Part shown: in pieces, positions 55,219 to 63,710 of the stretch
Layout of the letters: each line of letters begins with the position of its first letter
How positions within the stretch are numbered: position 1 is the stretch's first letter
Source: Saccharopolyspora spinosa NRRL 18395
Lineage (GTDB): Bacteria; Actinomycetota; Actinomycetes; Mycobacteriales; Pseudonocardiaceae
Reading direction: 5' to 3'
Assembly (NCBI RefSeq): GCF_000194155.1
Contig: NZ_GL877878.1
Span: forward strand, 2,606,783 to 2,670,782
DNA length: 64,000 nt
Translations under genes and position numbers: made by a program
The notes under the pieces: generated by a model
What the model was told of the DNA's origin: nothing
Seen by the model: only the letters and a program-made list of their open reading frames with translations
The model's database searches: none

Positions 55219-56325
55219 CTACCGCGCACCCCAAGCGGCAGGAGCGGGCGCGCCCGGCGACGGCGTGTCGGCGGGCGCACCGGGCTCGCGCGGCGCGATC
55301 CCAGCAGGCGGGGCGGGCTCGCTCGTCGAAGATCCAGCCCCGCTCGACTGCGCCGGATCGGCGGCCGGGCGGACCACCGTGGGCAGCAGCTGGCCGCCGT
55401 CCCACAGCTTCGTCGTCTCGACGGACTCGCCAGGCTGCGGCGCGTGCAGGACCTCGTTGTCGCCCAGGTACAGCGCCACGTGGTGGATTCCGTTCGGATC
55501 CCGGCCGTAACCCCAGAACACGAGGTCACCGGGCTGCGCCTGGGCCAGCGGGACGTGCACGCCGCCCTGGGAGTACTGGGTCTGCGAGTACTTCGGGATC
55601 TCCACCCCGGCCGCCTTCCAGGCCTGCTGCGTCAAGCCCGAGCAGTCGAAGGCGTTCGGCCCCGCCGCGCCCCACACGTACGGCTTGCCGAGCTGGCTCT
55701 GGGCGTACTGGATCGCCTGGCTGGCCAGCACGCCGGCGCTGGGCAGCTCCTGGCAGGCGCTGACGCCCTCGACGTTGCCCTCCACGCTCACCAGGTGCGC
55801 GGCCATCGGCTCCCACTTGTGGTAGCGCAGCGGGAACGCCGACCGCTCCACCCGCTGGGCGGCGTCGCCGGGTCGCATCTCCTCCCAGCGAGGCACCGCG
55901 AGCAGCACGTCGTAGAACTTGTTGATCGCGTAGTCCACGTCGGTGACCTGCTGGACCGAACCCCAGCCCATCGACGGCCGCATCTGGAAGATGCCCAGCG
56001 AGTCCCGGTCGCCGTGGAACACGTTGACCAGGTTCGACTCGGTTTTGCCCGCCTGGATCGCGATCTGCCAGGCCCGCGGCGGCAGGCCGCGCTGCTCGCC
56101 GATTTCGATGATGCGCTTGGCGATGGCGACCGATTCGGCGGACAGCGTCACGGCGTCCCGCTCGCCGCGGCCCGCGCCATCGCCCCACGGCCCCAGGTCT
56201 GCGCTGCAGTTGGACCAACCCGCACCCCGCCCACCGCTGCCGACCAGCAGGGCGGTCACCGCGCCGACGCCGATCAGACCTGCGAAACCCGCGAGCACGA
56301 CGAAGGCAACCACGAGCTTCCGCAT
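55219..56325 (-). CDS. NlpC/P60 peptidoglycan hydrolase with N-terminal transglycosylase-like region
   Basis: The 368-residue exported protein has one N-terminal membrane helix (residues about 5-29). A region like a lytic transglycosylase follows: LPPRAWQIAIQAGKTESNLVNVFHGDRDSLGIFQMRP. Then comes an NlpC/P60 domain with Cys228 (FDCSGL) and His281-His282 (HHVALYLG), and a Pro/Ala-rich tail. It should open the cell wall, the usual job of VirB1-like or NlpC/P60 proteins in Gram-positive type IV secretion. It is one base after the upstream gene stop, within the operon. Confidence 0.9.
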   Translation of the reverse strand: MRKLVVAFVVLAGFAGLIGVGAVTALLVGSGGRGAGWSNCSADLGPWGDGAGRGERDAVTLSAESVAIAKRIIEIGEQRGLPPRAWQIAIQAGKTESNLVNVFHGDRDSLGIFQMRPSMGWGSVQQVTDVDYAINKFYDVLLAVPRWEEMRPGDAAQRVERSAFPLRYHKWEPMAAHLVSVEGNVEGVSACQELPSAGVLASQAIQYAQSQLGKPYVWGAAGPNAFDCSGLTQQAWKAAGVEIPKYSQTQYSQGGVHVPLAQAQPGDLVFWGYGRDPNGIHHVALYLGDNEVLHAPQPGESVETTKLWDGGQLLPTVVRPAADPAQSSGAGSSTSEPAPPAGIAPREPGAPADTPSPGAPAPAAWGAR

Positions 56326-56326
56326 G

Positions 56327-56905
56327 TCAACCTTCCTTGTCGTACTGGGCGACTCGCCAACCGGCAGGGGTCTTGTTCACGGTCACCGAGAGCGCGCCGA
56401 CGTCGGTCGGCAACCGCACCACCATCGAGCCCGCGGTGGAACTGACCGCGGTGGTCGCACCGGTGATCACGTTGCCCGCGTTGCTCGGGTCCACCGACGC
56501 CATCTCGGTGAGGAACTCGTCAGTCGTGTACGGGCGCAGCTTGTCCAGCCACTGCTGGCGGTCGGCGCCGACCGGGTGGTCCACCCACGCCTTGCCCCAC
56601 TGCTCGACAACGGCCAGCCCGGCCGGGTCCGGGGCGACCGGTGTCGGGACGGCCTGTGGCACCGAGATCGTCGGCGGCGACTTCGTCCGGGTCAGCGGCG
56701 GCACCACTGCCGAGTGCCGGGGCGCCGAGGTGCGGGGGGCGGCCATGTTCTGGGTCGGCGGCGGCTCGGGCAGCAGGAAACCGATGGCTGTAGCCACCAC
56801 GGCGAGCACGATCACCGCAGTCGCAAGGTGCTTCGGCGAGCGCAACGGCCAGCCCCACAGCCTGCGGTACACCGCGGCCCGCCCGCGATGCGTCCGGATC
56901 GGCAT
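56327..56905 (-). CDS. Single-pass membrane protein of the secretion-like operon
   Basis: The 192-residue protein has a basic cytosolic start, one transmembrane helix (about residues 27-46), a Pro/Thr-rich linker and an extracellular domain of about 100 residues (VEQWGKAWVDHPVGADRQQWLDKLRPYTTDEFLTEMA, ending VTVNKTPAGWRVAQYDKEG). Topology and the NTF2-like appearance of the C-terminus recall VirB8/TcpC-type components of Gram-positive systems, but that is inference. Start ATG 56905, 18 bases after the TrbL-like stop. Confidence 0.75.
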   Translation of the reverse strand: MPIRTHRGRAAVYRRLWGWPLRSPKHLATAVIVLAVVATAIGFLLPEPPPTQNMAAPRTSAPRHSAVVPPLTRTKSPPTISVPQAVPTPVAPDPAGLAVVEQWGKAWVDHPVGADRQQWLDKLRPYTTDEFLTEMASVDPSNAGNVITGATTAVSSTAGSMVVRLPTDVGALSVTVNKTPAGWRVAQYDKEG

Positions 56906-56923
56906 CAGCTACCCCTCTTCCGC

Positions 56924-58728
56924 TCAGCCATCGGCTACCTCCAGCCCTCGGGAAGGCCGGTACACCACGTAGACCGGACGGCCGGCCACGACCTCCATCT
57001 CCGCTCGGCGCGGTGCCGGTTGTTCCGGCGGTCCGGGGACCGGGGAACCGGCCGTGCGCGACGGGACCAGCACCGGATCTTCGTCCATTCCATCCCATTT
57101 GGCATCCGCCACCGGGTTGGTATCGACCACTCGGCTTGTGCTCCGCGCCTCCGGCAGCGCCGCCGCGCCGCCAGGTCGGCGCGCCGCGCCGCCGGCAGGC
57201 AGCGCGGTTCCCGCGTCCGGACCGACATGTGCTGCGCCTCCGGCCGGCTCCGCCGGCGGCCGCGCTGCGGCGTCGCGTACTCGTCGTCGGGATCCGAGTC
57301 GCGCACCTGGTCCCAGAAGTTGCCGCCCTCTTCCTCCGACCGCCCGCGCCCGCGGAACTTGGCGAACAAGCCCTGCGGGGCGCGCGGCATGGCGCGGCCG
57401 ACGGTGCCCACCGACAGCTGGACCATCTGGCCGATCCGCCGGACCGGCTTGGCGACCAGCAGGAACACCACCGTGACCAGCGCGGCGAGCAGGATCTGGG
57501 TCAGCGCCGAGAATCCGCGCAGCGGGTCGAAGATCCAGGTCAGGATCAGGGTGTGCAGTCCAGCCAGCGCCGAGATCATGACCACGTTGAGCACTGCGGC
57601 ACCGGCCACCCGGCCGATGACGCGCAGCACCTGGTGGTAGATCAGCGCAACGAGCCCGATCAGCGGCCCGGCCAGGATCAGCACCCGAAGCAACACCTGG
57701 GCGAGCAGGATCGTCGCTTTCGCCAGCAGCTGGAACGCCGCGTAGGACAGGCCCTGCACCAGCGCCAGCACGCCACCGCCGACGCGGCTGCCGTCGACAC
57801 CCTGGAAGTAGCCGTAGGAACTGCCCATCTTGCCGGCGACGTCCTCGAAAGCCTGCTTCTTCGGCTCCGGTGAACCGGCATCGGCCGCGTCGTTGACCTC
57901 CTGCTTCGTCCACGCCTGCGCGCGCAGCAGGTCCCGGCCGAGCTGCTGGGCCTGCGGGGAGTCGGGCGAGCCGAACTCGCCGCGCAGCCAGTTGCGGTAG
58001 ATGACCTGGTCGTGCAGCAGCGTCGGCAGCGCGTTGGCCTCGTCGACGCCGACCTCCCGCAGGAACCCCGCCTGCACAGCCGAGGTCCCGGTGATCACCA
58101 CGTCGTCCAGCGCGTGCGTGTAGACCAGCGGCGTCAGGTAGGTCGCGGAGGCGAACCAGAGCCCCGCCAGCGCCCACATGCCCCGCTTGCCGATCGTGGC
58201 CAGGTCGCCCTGCCAGATGTAGCGGAACAGCACTACCGCCAGCACCAGCGCGACCAGCCCGAACCACGGGGTGAACACGCTGTCGTAGAGCGCGACGGTG
58301 CCGGTGGCGATGACGTCGTCGAGCGGGTCCATCAGGTCGCCGTTGAGCAGCGCGTAGTGCAGGCCGTTGGTGGCGCCGACGAGGTTCTTGGCGACGTTGA
58401 ACATCTCGTTGCCGAGCCACGTGTCGACCAGCGCGTTCGGATTGGTCACGCCCTGCGGGCCGCAGCCGAGGTCGTAGGTGTGCCAGACCAGCCCGGCGTA
58501 GCCGACCTCGTCGTAGGCGCTGCCCGGGTTCCCGACGCCCATCGGCGCGGGGTCCAGCGCTCCGACCATGCCCGAGCCCGGTCGCTCAGGGTTGGGCGCT
58601 TCCTTGCAGTCGAAGCCCTGACCCCAGGCCGGGGCGCCGATCAACGCCTGGATCGCGATCAGCCCGGCGACGAGCGCGAAAGCGCGGCGCTTGGGTGCGG
58701 TGCGCTTGGGTGCGGTGCGCAATTTCAA
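56924..58728 (-). CDS. Polytopic TrbL/VirB6-like membrane protein, with a probable 3' frameshift
   Basis: The roughly 600-residue protein has a signal-like N-terminus, a Cys-containing extracellular segment, about six to seven hydrophobic spans (for example WFGLVALVLAVVLFRYIW and QILLAALVTVVFLLV), and a polar tail. TTG 58728 overlaps the stop of a 36-residue gene as TTGA, which supports this unusual start. After about residue 500 the first frame becomes Arg-rich to 56935, while a second frame gives VVDTNPVADAKWDGMDEDPV and VYVVYRPSRGLEVADG to 56924. A frameshift near 57170-57260 is therefore likely. Its place between VirB4-like and wall-hydrolase genes fits a secretion-channel protein. Confidence 0.75.
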
Positions 58729-58753
58729 TGGAAATCGAAGGTCCGAAATTGCG
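58718..58753. repeat. Family A-like inverted repeat across a gene start
   Basis: CGCAATTT (58718-58725) and AAATTGCG (58746-58753) are arms around TTTCAATGGAAA and a spacer. The element supplies the stop of the 36-residue gene and the TTG start of the TrbL-like gene. Confidence 0.7.
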
Positions 58754-58835
58754 TTCGGGCCTCACGTCGCCGCCGACTTCGCAGGGCCATGACGATCACC
58801 GCGGCCAGCACGGTCACCAGAACTGCGCCGCTCAC
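58725..58835 (-). CDS. 36-residue single-pass membrane protein between VirB4-like and TrbL-like genes
   Basis: GTG 58835 overlaps the VirB4-like TGA as GTGA. The product is VSGAVLVTVLAAVIVMAL followed by a basic RSRRRREARTQFRTFDFH, so one N-out helix with a positive cytosolic tail. The stop TGA (58727-58725) overlaps the next gene's TTG start. Coupling on both sides argues that it is a real gene despite its size. No family is recognised; a small subunit of the membrane complex is plausible. Confidence 0.6.
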   Translation of the reverse strand: MSGAVLVTVLAAVIVMALRSRRRREARTQFRTFDFH

Positions 58836-61800
58836 CGCGCGTCTTCCCCACCCCGCTCGCCCGGCCGACCGGTCGAGCGCTCGCTGCCGTCATCGGTGTA
58901 GCCGATGCCGACCGTTTCGAGCTCGAATTCGTCGAACGATTCGAAGTCGTCCGCGTACTCCTCGGCCGAGCGCAGCGCCGGGACGCTGGAATCGGAGTTC
59001 GCGCCGTTGTCGACCGGCTGCAGGGCCCGGCGTTCGACGTGGTCGTCGGCGGCCGGGGTGGTGTTCAGCGCGTCGCGCAGGTGGTCCAGGTGCGGGCCGG
59101 AGAAGTCGATGCGGATCTTCTCCACCCCGCCGGCCCCGTCGCCGAAGATGAACTGGCGCGGCGAACGGTCCCGCTCGGTGGCGTTGCGGGCCGGGCCGGG
59201 GCGGCGGCCCAGCGCCGCCACCACCTGCTCGTACCCGGCGCCGACGGGCACCTTGAGCAGCCGCAGCGCGTCGGCCTGCGCCTGCTCGTCGTCCAGCCGC
59301 CCGATGAACACCGAGTCCAGCAGGGAAACGAAGCCCTGGATGCGCAGGAAGTCCGCCGGGATTTGGCTGGACAGCAGGACTCGGACGTTCCACTTACGGG
59401 AGTCGCGGGCGAACCGGTTCATCAGCACCCGGCCGGTCGGCACCTCGGAGAGGAAGAACGCCTCGTCGATCCACACGCCCTTGCGCTCGTTCTTGGGCCG
59501 CTCGTAGATCGACCGCTGCGTCAGCCACGCGGCCAGGTTGAGCATCTCGACGCCAAGCGCCTCCGCGTCGGTCCAGTGCTCCCGGCCGACGCCGTCCTTC
59601 GGCAGCGTCAGGCCCGCCATAGTCAACACTGTGAGCCGGTCCTCGCGGCGCTCGGAGTACGGGTCGGCGTTGATCTCGGGGATCAGCAGCGACATCCGCT
59701 CCCGGATCTCGTCGAGGAAGTCGGCCACCACCACGGCGTGCTCGTGGTGTTCGCTCGCGTCGCGGCGCAGCGCCTCGAAGACCATGCCCGGGTGGGCGTC
59801 GGGTCGGCCGCCGACGGCGCGGACCGCGCGCAGCAGCACGATCCGGGTCTGCGGCAGCCGCGCCACCTCGTACGGCAGCAGACCGGTCAGCACGTCGAGC
59901 ACCAGGCGGCGGCGGGTGGCCGCGGCCAGCGCGCGCTCGCGGCGCCAGCTGCGCTCCGGGTCTTCCTCGTCGACGAAGTGCTCCAGTTCCGGCTCGGCGA
60001 CCACCCGGTACGGGTTGAGGATGCCGGGCTGGGCGTTGAGCAGGTTGATCGGCCGGGCGTAGGGCCGCAGCTCGGGCAGGGTGCACAGCGCGGCCAGTGG
60101 ACCGGACGGGTCCAGCAACGTCCAGTGCGCCCCGGAGCGCAGCGTCTTGTAGACGGTGCCGCCGCCGAGGAAGGAGTTGTGCGTGGGGATGCACGTCTCC
60201 CCGGCCAGATACATGTGGTCCGCGTTATCCACCTGGACACAACGCACCGGAACAGATTCCACTGGCACTACATCGGCGATGTAGCGATAGCGGTTCGTGT
60301 CCCGAATGCTCGGATTGAGCTGCGCCAGCTTCCGCGTGAGCCGGAACACCTTGTCCGAGGTGGTAAACGAGATGATGTAGGCGGTCGAGGTGTGCGGATG
60401 CCGCCCCTTTACCTGCTTCGTGCGCAACCGAGCCTGATATCCCAGTCCCAGCACCAACTCGTGAACATCCCGGGCCAGTCTCTGGCTCGTCACGGAGAAT
60501 TCGATGCCACCCGACGGCTTGCAGTACCCATCCGTATCGAGCAGACCGGCGAGCAACGCGCGGCGTTGCCCTTCGGACGCTCGTAGATAGCCGGCCGGGA
60601 TGTGCTTGTTGTCCAGCAGCCCCATCCGCCGCAAATTCTGCTGCACCGCAACCGGCAAGCTGTAATCCCGTTGCGACGGGCGATACCGGCATTCCTGGCC
60701 AGCGCATTCCTGGCCAGCAGCCTCGATCTCGTCGATGAGCTCACGATCGAAGACCGTGATGGCCGCTCCGCAGGAGGTTCCGTCGCCGAGCCACGCCCCA
60801 AGTAGGTACGGCTCGACGGGCAAGTCGGCTTCCGGCAGGTCGAACGCCGCTGCGACCGGAACCGCGTGGTTTCGCTGCCTGCCGGAACTTAGCGTCGCAG
60901 CGATCTCAGCGGTCGTATGGATCGTGGGGCGCTGATTGATCTCCAGCGAGATCTCACCACGGCGCTGGTGCCCGCGAACGAAACGCGAATAGTAGACCGT
61001 GCCGTCGCTTCGGGCGTCAGGGGTACGCCGGTAAGTCCACATCTTCGTCGGCTGGCCACAGCCGCAGGCGCAGCTACCCGGAGGCGGTTCCGGGCTCGGC
61101 ATCGTGGCAGCGGCCCGGCGGAGTCGTTCCGCTAGACGGTTCTGGGCCTTCCAGTCCTTCCTAGTCCGGGTCAGCCATTGATGCTGCGCGTCGGCGCGGA
61201 TCACGGATCCATCCGAGAACACCACGTCATAACACGGACGGTCGAGCAAAACGTCGGTCGCCGCGATCACGCGAGTCGGCTGGCCATTCATTCCCAGCAG
61301 TTGATCGCCGACCTTGACCTCACCCATCGTGGTCCAGCCAGTCGGTGTGGGCAGCGGGGTGTCGAGGGCAAGCGCCTTGCCCCCGCCCAACCCGGCGACT
61401 ATTGCGGTCAGGCCGGAGGCGTCGCGGATTTCCTGCGCCATCCACGGATCCCAGGCCACCGGGCGGCGGGTCGCGGTGCAGGTCTCGCCGAGCAGGACGC
61501 CGCGCCGGTCACCGACCTCCGCGGTCGCCTGCGGCACCGCGGAAGCGGCCCAGACCACCGATCCGCGGCGCAGGTAGGCGCTGTTGGCCAGCGGCTCGCC
61601 GGGGATGAATTCGCGGGCCATCGCGTACTGCGCTTCGGGGTGCTCGATGGCGATCTTCGGCTTGTACAGGTCGAGGATCTGCTGCGCCAACCGCAGCGCA
61701 TCCCGCTCGGTGGGGCCGGAAACCGCCAGCCGCCACCAGGACTTGACCCGGGTGGCCAGCGCGGTGAAGCCGGAGGTCATCTCGTCGTCGACCTCCAGCA

Positions 61801-62917
61801 CCCGGCCCGCCTGCCGGGCCAGCGAGGTCGGCGGCTCCAGGCCGTGCTCCTCGGTGTAGTGCCGCACCTGGGAGCGCACCTTGTTCATCTGCCGCTGCAG
61901 CTCGCCGCCGACGTCTTCGGGGCGCCGCACGTAGATCCGCGCGGACCACTCGACGGGCGCGGGCAGCCGGTCGGAGTGCTGCACCCAGGGGTCGTCGATC
62001 TCCGGGATCTGCAGGCCGTGGGTCTGCCCGACGGTGAGCACCGCGAGGTGCCGGGTGACGCCCGCGTTCGAGCCGGTGCGGCCGCGCACCGTCACGGTCG
62101 GCGCGTACGGGTCCTGGTGCATGTCGGAGGCGTCGGTGAAGGACGCGAGATCCTCCGGTTCCCACGGAGCGCCGGGCACCGCGGGCAGGTTGCGCGGCGC
62201 GGGCAGGCCCAGCGAGCACGAACGGTGCATCAGCCAGGAGATCTCCTCGGCGGTCACCGGACGCCCGTCCAGCCCGGCCGAGCCGATCACCTGGTCCAGG
62301 TGCTCGATCTCGCTGTCCAGCGCGATGAGTTCGGCGTCCACCGCTTCCGGGAACACCCGGCGCAGCAGCGGCGCGGCGCGTTCAACGGCGCGGTCCACCA
62401 CGTTGCGGGTCTGCACCTGGACACCCAGGTAGACCTCTTTCTCCGCCATTGAGCGGCCCATCAGCTGCTGCTGCTCGCCGACCATGTAGTCGTCGAAGGA
62501 CAGCGCACCGGGCGTGTCCGGCATGGGGTTGCGCGCGTTGTACACGTGCGCCTCGGCCCACATCCGGATCGGGTAGGGCCGGTTCGTCACGCGCAGGTGC
62601 ATCCAGCGGCCCTGCAGCTCGGCGTACTGGCCGGCGATCGCGGCGATCAGATCCTGGCGCTGCGAATCGGAGCGGAAGGACCAGCGCTGCGGCGAAAGCC
62701 GGTACCAGGCGAACACGTCCTGGCCGGTGCGCAGCACGTGGCCTTCGATCGACCGCACGGCGATCGACGGCGTGTAGTTCGGGATGGACTGCTCGTCGCC
62801 GGGGCCGCGGGTGCGTTTGGCCTGCTTGCCGCTGGCACTGCGGACCTTGCCGTTCGAACCGCGGGGACCCGGAACCTGGTGCGTGTTGCGCTCACGGCCT
62901 CGCCGGCGACCGAACAC
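58832..62917 (-). CDS. VirB4/TraC-like conjugation ATPase interrupted by an intein
   Basis: The 1,361-residue precursor gives a 961-residue ATPase after splicing. The N-terminal 500 residues are the VirB4-type N-domain. The Walker A loop GLGGGK-S is split between Lys514 and Ser915 by the intein. Walker B is GVWIDEAFFL at about residue 1,150, followed by RKWNVRVLLSSQIPADF, typical of VirB4 motor domains. A polar C-terminal tail follows. It should power a type IV secretion-like channel. GTG 62917 has AAGGAGG upstream and overlaps the PrgI gene by 26 bases. Without splicing the P-loop is broken. Confidence 0.92.
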   Translation of the reverse strand: MFGRRRGRERNTHQVPGPRGSNGKVRSASGKQAKRTRGPGDEQSIPNYTPSIAVRSIEGHVLRTGQDVFAWYRLSPQRWSFRSDSQRQDLIAAIAGQYAELQGRWMHLRVTNRPYPIRMWAEAHVYNARNPMPDTPGALSFDDYMVGEQQQLMGRSMAEKEVYLGVQVQTRNVVDRAVERAAPLLRRVFPEAVDAELIALDSEIEHLDQVIGSAGLDGRPVTAEEISWLMHRSCSLGLPAPRNLPAVPGAPWEPEDLASFTDASDMHQDPYAPTVTVRGRTGSNAGVTRHLAVLTVGQTHGLQIPEIDDPWVQHSDRLPAPVEWSARIYVRRPEDVGGELQRQMNKVRSQVRHYTEEHGLEPPTSLARQAGRVLEVDDEMTSGFTALATRVKSWWRLAVSGPTERDALRLAQQILDLYKPKIAIEHPEAQYAMAREFIPGEPLANSAYLRRGSVVWAASAVPQATAEVGDRRGVLLGETCTATRRPVAWDPWMAQEIRDASGLTAIVAGLGGGKALALDTPLPTPTGWTTMGEVKVGDQLLGMNGQPTRVIAATDVLLDRPCYDVVFSDGSVIRADAQHQWLTRTRKDWKAQNRLAERLRRAAATMPSPEPPPGSCACGCGQPTKMWTYRRTPDARSDGTVYYSRFVRGHQRRGEISLEINQRPTIHTTAEIAATLSSGRQRNHAVPVAAAFDLPEADLPVEPYLLGAWLGDGTSCGAAITVFDRELIDEIEAAGQECAGQECRYRPSQRDYSLPVAVQQNLRRMGLLDNKHIPAGYLRASEGQRRALLAGLLDTDGYCKPSGGIEFSVTSQRLARDVHELVLGLGYQARLRTKQVKGRHPHTSTAYIISFTTSDKVFRLTRKLAQLNPSIRDTNRYRYIADVVPVESVPVRCVQVDNADHMYLAGETCIPTHNSFLGGGTVYKTLRSGAHWTLLDPSGPLAALCTLPELRPYARPINLLNAQPGILNPYRVVAEPELEHFVDEEDPERSWRRERALAAATRRRLVLDVLTGLLPYEVARLPQTRIVLLRAVRAVGGRPDAHPGMVFEALRRDASEHHEHAVVVADFLDEIRERMSLLIPEINADPYSERREDRLTVLTMAGLTLPKDGVGREHWTDAEALGVEMLNLAAWLTQRSIYERPKNERKGVWIDEAFFLSEVPTGRVLMNRFARDSRKWNVRVLLSSQIPADFLRIQGFVSLLDSVFIGRLDDEQAQADALRLLKVPVGAGYEQVVAALGRRPGPARNATERDRSPRQFIFGDGAGGVEKIRIDFSGPHLDHLRDALNTTPAADDHVERRALQPVDNGANSDSSVPALRSAEEYADDFESFDEFELETVGIGYTDDGSERSTGRPGERGGEDAR
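60176..61375 (-). mobile_element. Class 3 intein with LAGLIDADG homing endonuclease
   Basis: The 400-residue element starts ALALDTPLPTPTGW with Ala1 instead of Cys/Ser. It has Trp67 in DAQHQWLT, Cys379 in VRCVQVDN and Thr398 before the final His-Asn, followed by extein Ser. This Trp-Cys-Thr set with Ala1 marks a class 3 intein, in which the block F Cys does the first attack. Two LAGLIDADG motifs (LLGAWLGDG at about 189-198, LLAGLLDTDG at about 274-283) indicate a homing endonuclease. A CACGCGQPTK-type Cys cluster precedes them. The insertion site is the ATPase P-loop. Confidence 0.9.
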
Positions 62918-63410
62918 CGCGAACCTCCTTGCTACGCGTGCGCCTGCTGGTAACCGTGCCGCGGGCCGCTGGCTGCCTGGACCGGGCGGGCCGCTGCTGC
63001 GGCTGCTGCGGCTGCTGCGGGCGAACCCGCTTGGACTTCTTCCTGGGCCGAGGCCGCTGCGCCTTCACCCTGATCCGCGCCGCGCTGGCGGCGCCGCCCG
63101 TGCCGGACGTCTTCTCGCGGGGCGCGGTGAGCTCGCGGAGCCACATCACCAGCACCGCACCCAGCGGGCGTTCGTGCCCGATCCGGGAGCAGATGATCCG
63201 GGTGACGACGACCGTGGTGACCACTGCCCACCCGGTGGAGAAGAAGCCGAAGCCGATGTTCATCCGGCGCTCCACCGCGAGCACGATCAGGAACACCACG
63301 AGCCCCACGCCCCAGGCGACGTAGCGGGCCCGCCACGGGAAGGTCGCCTTGGGTGGGCCGAGCCAGACGGCGTCGACCCGGTAGATCTCGTCGTCGGTCC
63401 GTATTCGCAC
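62892..63410 (-). CDS. PrgI-family membrane protein
   Basis: The 172-residue protein has a short N-terminal DEIYRVDAVWLGPPKATFPWRARY, two adjacent helices at about residues 30-47 and 52-70, and a basic Pro/Gln-rich tail (RPQQPQQPQQRPARS). PrgI/TcpE-like proteins accompany VirB4 in Gram-positive conjugation systems. Its tail overlaps the VirB4-like gene start. It lies six bases after the VirB2-like stop. Confidence 0.8.
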   Translation of the reverse strand: MRIRTDDEIYRVDAVWLGPPKATFPWRARYVAWGVGLVVFLIVLAVERRMNIGFGFFSTGWAVVTTVVVTRIICSRIGHERPLGAVLVMWLRELTAPREKTSGTGGAASAARIRVKAQRPRPRKKSKRVRPQQPQQPQQRPARSRQPAARGTVTSRRTRSKEVRGVRSPARP

Positions 63411-63416
63411 GCCGAA

Positions 63417-63710
63417 TCACCCGCCGCTGGTGCTGAACAGGCCAGCGATGAACGTGCCGATGTTGACGCCCGCCCCGTTGACGGCAAGACCGATGATCGC
63501 GAGCGCGACGATCACCCCACCGACGCGGCGCATGACGCCCGCGTTGTCGCCCTTGCCACCGCCCAGCCACAGCAGCAGGATCGCGACGGTGAGCAGCAGC
63601 AGCGGGAGCAGGTTTTCGAGGATCCAGCCCTGAATGCCTCCCGTGCCCACCTGTGTCTGCTGCGCCAGTACGTCCAGTTGCGCCAGTGTTTCCAGTGGCA
63701 TGGCGGTCAT
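63417..63710 (-). CDS. VirB2/TrbC-like small two-helix membrane protein
   Basis: The 97-residue protein has a polar N-terminus, a first helix at about residues 31-50 (ENLLPLLLLTVAILLLWLGG), a short basic loop GKGDNAGVMRRVG and a second helix at about 64-82, ending GLFSTSGG. This hairpin topology is that of VirB2/TrbC pilin-like subunits. It is the first gene of the leftward secretion-like operon inside the window. ATG 63710 has AAAGAGATG just upstream. Confidence 0.75.
   Translation of the reverse strand: MTAMPLETLAQLDVLAQQTQVGTGGIQGWILENLLPLLLLTVAILLLWLGGGKGDNAGVMRRVGGVIVALAIIGLAVNGAGVNIGTFIAGLFSTSGG

Follow-up and report, generated by a model that had tools for sequence, protein, structure and literature searches.

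Class 3 inteins are defined by the 'WCT' triplet, consisting of Trp at position 12 of block B (B:12), Cys at position 4 of block F (F:4) and Thr at position 5 of block G (G:5) (PMC3196547; the block positions are also given in PMC5222942), and their presence in P-loops is already well known. The closest described systems are the mycobacterial DnaB-b/DnaBi1 inteins (from M. smegmatis, M. leprae and M. chimaera; structures 6bs8 and 6rix), which lie between the Lys and Ser of the Walker A loop with flanks FGVGK/STLGL (PMC5222942), and for which Ser+1 is described as both a splicing nucleophile and the P-loop Ser (PMC6195587). Inteins of DnaB and of IcmO have been shown to splice with the block F Cys (CysF4) as the first nucleophile (PMC5222942). 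Inteins located in P-loops or ATPase domains have also been described in mycobacteriophage terminases, of which TerL1-c and TerL1-e belong to class 3 (PMC5050341), and ATPase activity is reported to be absent before splicing for the P-loop intein of P. horikoshii RadA (cited in PMC6195587 and PMC8557812).

The window (the whole 64,000-nucleotide stretch of Saccharopolyspora spinosa DNA that was analysed) contains a gene that very probably encodes a widespread chromosomal VirB4-type ATPase carrying, within its Walker A loop, a self-splicing class 3 intein with a LAGLIDADG endonuclease (Table 1). The translated junctions read ...GLGGGK / ALALDTP ... CIPTHN / SFLGGG, so that the insertion point falls precisely between Lys514 and the following Ser of the Walker A loop; the intein begins with the sequence ALALDTPLPTPTGWTTMG and ends with CIPTHN. 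An exact Lys/Ser insertion in the Walker A loop of a VirB4-type (AAA_10) host had been proposed in a sequence-only reading of this DNA and is borne out by translation and by Pfam; that reading had also described an intein of 400 residues with Ala1, Trp67, Cys379 and Thr398, all of which lie where it had placed them. The AAA_10 match in the precursor extends from residue 1020 only, starting at profile position 119; AAA_10 with its Walker A motif matches all 14 of the intein-free relatives examined (best E-value 1.6e-25), and in the one printed it covers residues 519–841, beginning at profile position 23.

Table 1. Coordinates (positions in the window) of the precursor gene, its predicted splicing and endonuclease elements, and the surrounding cluster.
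Feature	Position	Strand	Remarks
T4SS-like gene cluster with host gene	55219..63710	-	Pfam/curated-family matches
Precursor gene, VirB4-type ATPase plus intein	58832..62917	-	one ORF, 1361 codons, GTG start; AAA_10 4.7e-15
N-extein, residues 1-514, ending ...GLGGGK of Walker A	61376..62917	-	
Class 3 intein, 400 residues	60176..61375	-	precursor residues 515-914
C-extein, opening with Ser+1 (SFLGGG); remainder of AAA_10 domain	58832..60175	-	
Ala1, no N-terminal nucleophile	61373..61375	-	invariant in 40/40 aligned inteins
Cys48, counterpart of disulfide partner in M. smegmatis DnaBi1 intein	61232..61234	-	alignment; PMC6195587
Block B, D62-A-Q-H65-Q-W67	61175..61192	-	
Cys-rich loop, C102-x-C104-G-C106 ... 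G-H136, between block B and endonuclease	60968..61072	-	
LAGLIDADG motif 1, LLGAWLGDG, intein residues 191-199	60779..60805	-	
15-bp perfect tandem duplication in endonuclease part, AGQEC twice, between the two motifs	60689..60718	.	in-frame
LAGLIDADG motif 2, LLAGLLDTDG, intein residues 274-283	60527..60556	-	
Cys379, block F position 4, proposed first nucleophile	60239..60241	-	
Thr398-His399-Asn400, block G	60176..60184	-	
Ser+1, predicted second nucleophile and P-loop Ser of mature protein	60173..60175	-	

The intein contains the complete WCT triplet (Trp67, Cys379 and Thr398), together with the other residues expected of class 3: His65 (B:10), a penultimate His399, a terminal Asn400, Ser+1 and a non-nucleophilic residue at position 1. 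A1, C48, D62, H65, W67, C379, T398, H399 and N400 are invariant in all 40 inteins aligned, and A1, C48, W67, CysF4, the terminal THN and Ser+1 are kept in all ten VirB4 inteins found in the family (see below). A phmmer search of the PDB with the intein sequence returned 6rix (2.1e-39), 6riy (1e-38) and 6bs8 (9.7e-38), entries named as replicative DNA helicase; the match row that 6bs8 shares with 6own identifies it as the M. smegmatis DnaBi1 intein, and 6rix and 6riy we take to be the M. chimaera intein. All three alignments start from the first residue and run to residue 400 (6rix), 399 (6riy) and 400 (6bs8), such that both ends of the intein are covered and the LAGLIDADG domain fills the middle. 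The three best matches are class 3 DnaB inteins, and the gp41-1 intein (6riz) is a far weaker match (0.064). The residue signature confirms the segment as a class 3 intein, as had been claimed from the sequence alone, and the PDB matches and the alignment agree; splicing via Cys F:4 is predicted.

The absence of a nucleophile at position 1 is also compatible with a class 2 route, in which Ser+1 would attack the N-terminal junction directly. We regard that route, or a class 1 route, as extremely improbable. Trp67, Cys379 and Thr398 form the class 3 triplet, and the intein both aligns with class 3 DnaB inteins and finds its best structural matches among them; furthermore, none of the three class 3 inteins described as tested in PMC5222942 spliced after loss of CysF4, and class 1 requires Ser, Thr or Cys at position 1 (PMC3196547).

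The mycobacterial DnaB-b/DnaBi1 inteins share with the window intein Cys48 and the splicing residues, the latter with equal numbering up to block B (His65/Trp67), and they occupy the same Walker A Lys/Ser site (PMC5222942). The M. smegmatis and M. leprae DnaB inteins, however, are mini-inteins without an endonuclease in a replicative helicase, whereas the window intein is full-length, with LAGLIDADG motifs, in a VirB4-type ATPase. Full-length relatives were found in actinobacterial genomes: at 76 of 79 intein loci (the 79 being drawn from 102 qualifying stretches) the flanks are of DnaB type, a name assigned from those flanks, and all 76 inteins are positioned between the Lys and Ser of the P-loop; the remaining three loci are VirB4-type (L064, L065 and L066). 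The LAGLIDADG motifs are intact in four of the five DnaB inteins printed. Among the 29 DnaB inteins that were aligned to the window intein, 28 are 47–60% identical to it and one is 39% identical. The DnaB inteins differ from the VirB4 inteins in their host protein and lie outside the separate VirB4 clade (support 100). In the genome containing the window, the DnaB P-loop also harbors an intein between Lys and Ser; it is 500 residues long and has the class 3 residues (G000:C3:179289-180818, locus L199).

More distant relatives were found in other ATPases. The plasmid pKAZ5 (KR827394), of the IncC-type conjugative group, carries an insert in TraD, a T4SS coupling ATPase, with junctions GTTGSGK/A...THN/T; by eye, this intein has Ala1, a block B HLW, a block F Cys and a terminal THN, and it contains LAGLIDADG motifs and is 26% identical to the window intein. 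The TraD host is presumably VirD4-type rather than VirB4-type. That TraD (L258) is annotated as a single 990-residue protein despite the intein at GSGK/T. We also observed a Rhodococcus plasmid protein of the FtsK/SpoIIIE type in which a class 3-like intein follows GSGK. In viral contigs, inteins with class 3 residues follow GK (for example at L143, L147 and L156); the seven that were aligned are 37–49% identical to the window intein and differ from it in residing in phage host proteins. The IcmO intein of Burkholderia vietnamiensis belongs to class 3 and has been shown to splice, in a protein whose function is described as not established (PMC5222942). It differs from the window intein in that it is a plasmid-borne mini-intein with Cys+1 and flanks ARSLGF/CITFA, which do not correspond to a Walker A Lys/Ser site (PMC5222942).

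The sequence-only reading had proposed alignment with VirB4 homologues lacking the intein, and a search for empty sites in sister strains, as checks on its claim. In each of 65 intein-free copies that we read, the flanks join directly and in frame as GxGK/SF, leaving an unbroken P-loop. These copies are a non-random set in which the match had stopped at the insertion site, comprising all 20 from the genus of the window and, from each of the other genera sampled, one or a few; 62 were recovered by a first pattern and three more by a pattern containing GxGK followed by S or T. All 22 genomes of that genus have the host gene and two have the intein (the window's own, G000, and G007); in the 20 genomes with empty sites the match halts at residue 515 and restarts at residue 915 (914 in one). 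Since intein-free homologues join the flanks directly, the segment is truly an insert. The P-loop Ser codon is AGC in the intein-free copy L207 (G387), a sister of carrier G388, and TCN in the other 15 of 16 sites printed.

Of the 390 genomes in the family, about 387 have the host gene, based on the best E-value per genome. The probe for this search consisted of the ∼100 residues preceding the site and the first residues of the intein, and matched 388 of the 390 genomes; the match in G057 (E-value 1.1e-30) seems to be to intein sequence only, hence the lower count. Among the intein-free matches listed, those ∼100 residues are 77–96% identical to those of the window. The host gene lies within a cluster that also encodes an NlpC/P60 protein (8.7e-25), a 192-residue protein, a CD3337/EF1877-type membrane protein (1.7e-8; 33.7 bits, where the cut-off is 120) and proteins of 172 and 97 residues. 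The order of these genes is kept in all five relatives checked (G007, G015, G225, G065 and G291). In four of them the cluster is flanked by an RNB gene and, at its opposite end, by a Nif3 gene; the stretch fetched for G291 showed the cluster only. Because it is present in about 387 of 390 genomes and in the same order in five relatives, the host gene is in use, and we infer that it is a long-standing chromosomal gene rather than part of a plasmid or of a recent conjugative element.

Assignment of the host to a named T4SS family was considered and not adopted: its AAA_10 match is firm, but its match to TcpF (1e-8, 33.6 bits) is far below the curated cut-off of 1100, and a profile of the host matched no solved structure in the PDB at an E-value of 0.01. 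The C-extein alone gave a single, meaningless match (0.43). The Pfam AAA_10 match, together with the weak match to TcpF, suggests that the protein is best described as VirB4-like.

Across the 390 genomes of the family, ten have an intein at the VirB4 site. They fall into seven genus groups (G000 and G007; G224; G066; G189; G386; G388; and G288, G293 and G341); the hosts of all ten were verified by translation. The named carriers are Amycolatopsis alkalitolerans (G189), Actinophytocola xinjiangensis (G066) and an Actinophytocola metagenome-assembled genome (G386), and we take the family to be the Pseudonocardiaceae. A class-wide search covered 394 genomes, three of which (G000, G040 and G278) belong to the window's family. 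Among the matches listed, only the window's own gene gave one running through both host and intein; the list was ordered by E-value, and any such match would rank first in it. The sequence-only reading knew of no VirB4 case from an actinobacterial chromosome. In the open-licence literature, no report of an intein in VirB4 was found among the titles and abstract openings of the matches listed. Nine other genomes of the family carry the same intein. Within the reach of these searches, the host protein is new for class 3 inteins.

A quick tree of 58 inteins (the ten from VirB4, 40 from DnaB and eight of the 26 viral ones) placed the VirB4 inteins in one clade, with an SH-aLRT support of 100. The DnaB set, from which further loci were omitted, comprised 38 of the 76 together with those of G000 and G007, and no class 1 or class 2 intein is known to be among the 58. 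The split between DnaB and the rest had a support of only 6 in this quick tree, which has long phage branches, and placements of the VirB4 clade as sister to the DnaB inteins or nested among them are not separated by it. The VirB4 and DnaB insertion sites have little sequence in common beyond the core GGCAAG/TC. We rejected a shared homing sequence for the two sites: the core follows from the shared GK/S and is no proof of ectopic homing.

When presence of the intein is mapped onto a quick tree of 75 host proteins, nine changes are required, eight of them forced by the starred branches, compared with an average of 9.6 for shuffled labels; presence is thus as scattered as random, which is what a mobile element gives. 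Divergence of the intein nevertheless correlates with that of the host, both for all ten carriers (Mantel r 0.89, p 0.0001) and for six carriers taken one per genus with group g31 omitted (r 0.65, p 0.0013). Recent, free horizontal spread as the sole explanation is not upheld, given that intein distances follow host distances; the correlation is as compatible with long residence and losses as with transfer. Our reading is that the intein is an old resident of the family that has been lost repeatedly and has re-homed for the most part locally, gains and losses being inseparable with these data.

Two LAGLIDADG motifs were read in the translation and labelled as such by us, and a Pfam LAGLIDADG_3 match (3.6e-8) agrees with their retention, as previously suggested. 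The acidic residues of both motifs (LGDG and DTDG) are present in the window intein; all ten VirB4 inteins have LGDG and nine have DTDG, the exception being G388, where the motif reads DTAG and most of the Cys-rich loop is missing. In six pairs, chosen from 45 and not independent of one another, dN/dS values were 0.16–0.31 for the endonuclease part versus 0.05–0.15 for the N-terminal splicing part. Because these values are low, yet higher than those of the splicing part, they indicate that the endonuclease part is under purifying selection, weaker than that acting on the splicing blocks. The 15-bp duplication is private to the window copy, being absent from the other nine VirB4 inteins, and since it falls within the endonuclease part, homing by this copy may be impaired. 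The suggestion that the intein may still be mobile consequently appears plausible for the lineage, on the basis of these ratios, and less so for the window copy with its own duplication.

By analogy with the studied relatives, splicing would begin with attack by Cys379 on the Lys514–Ala1 bond; the N-extein acyl group would then pass to Ser+1, and cyclization of Asn400 would leave the exteins joined. The product of the 1361-residue precursor would be an ATPase of 961 residues whose GLGGGKS loop is intact. Before splicing the P-loop is split, and splicing should therefore be required for use of ATP. Through homing, alleles lacking the intein would receive a copy by way of the endonuclease.

As an alternative, the intein could be a decayed class 3 element that no longer splices, leaving the host ATPase inactive in the window strain. 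A published precedent is the non-splicing Arth_1007 intein of Arthrobacter (PMC3196547), and such decay could also be read into the private in-frame duplication and the low GC3 of the intein (0.76, versus 0.94 for the exteins of the host gene). The dead Arth_1007 intein, however, is described as lacking CysF4 and HisB10 (PMC3196547), both of which the window intein has. In addition, the precursor reading frame is open, dN is far below dS in both the splicing blocks and the host gene when compared with the nearest carrier (G007), and the host gene is present in nearly all genomes of the family. We therefore consider decay highly improbable, and favor an intein that would still splice.

Conservation of Cys48 raises the further question of whether splicing might be regulated. 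In M. smegmatis DnaBi1, a Cys48–Cys118 disulfide and zinc bound at Cys118 each reversibly inhibit splicing (PMC6195587, PMC7360933 and PMC8557812), and Cys48 is found in all ten VirB4 inteins and all 40 aligned relatives. The insert might then be useful to its host, with a reversible Cys48–Cys379 disulfide, or zinc on Cys379, pausing assembly of the ATPase under stress (conditional splicing). This appears unlikely. Every Cys48 mutation tried in DnaBi1 is reported to have abolished splicing (PMC6195587), and because Cys48 is needed there, its conservation may be catalytic or structural rather than regulatory. Moreover, the intein is found in ten of about 387 host genes; the 97% that do without it argue that the host does not need it, and its presence is as scattered as shuffled labels. 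An adaptive switch provided by the intein is possible but not favored.

The VirB4 inteins also share a CxCGC motif, found in all ten (in G388 without the rest of the loop); this exact motif was found in none of the 76 DnaB inteins and none of the 26 from viral contigs. The CxCGC...GH loop is possibly a metal site. In a more elaborate and quite improbable proposal, maturation would be redox- or zinc-sensitive: oxidized Cys48–Cys379, or zinc on Cys379, would keep the P-loop split and the secretion machine unpowered, with the Cys-rich loop of the clade acting as a further metal or redox sensor.

Our preferred reading remains that of a self-splicing, LAGLIDADG-containing intein of long residence in the family. 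Precedents for a class 3 intein in a T4SS-type ATPase are the published intein of IcmO, a protein whose name presumably points to a type IV secretion ATPase, and the TraD intein read here. The VirB4-type ATPase now joins the hosts of P-loop class 3 inteins, which include DnaB and, by our own reading, TraD and viral ATPases. It provides a second protein in which control of splicing by Cys48–CysF4 oxidation could be tested. The approximately 387 orthologues in one family, ten of them with the intein and one of these (G388) with a changed LAGLIDADG motif, form a natural series at a single site, in which the invasion, decay and loss of an intein can be counted in a setting other than phages and plasmids.
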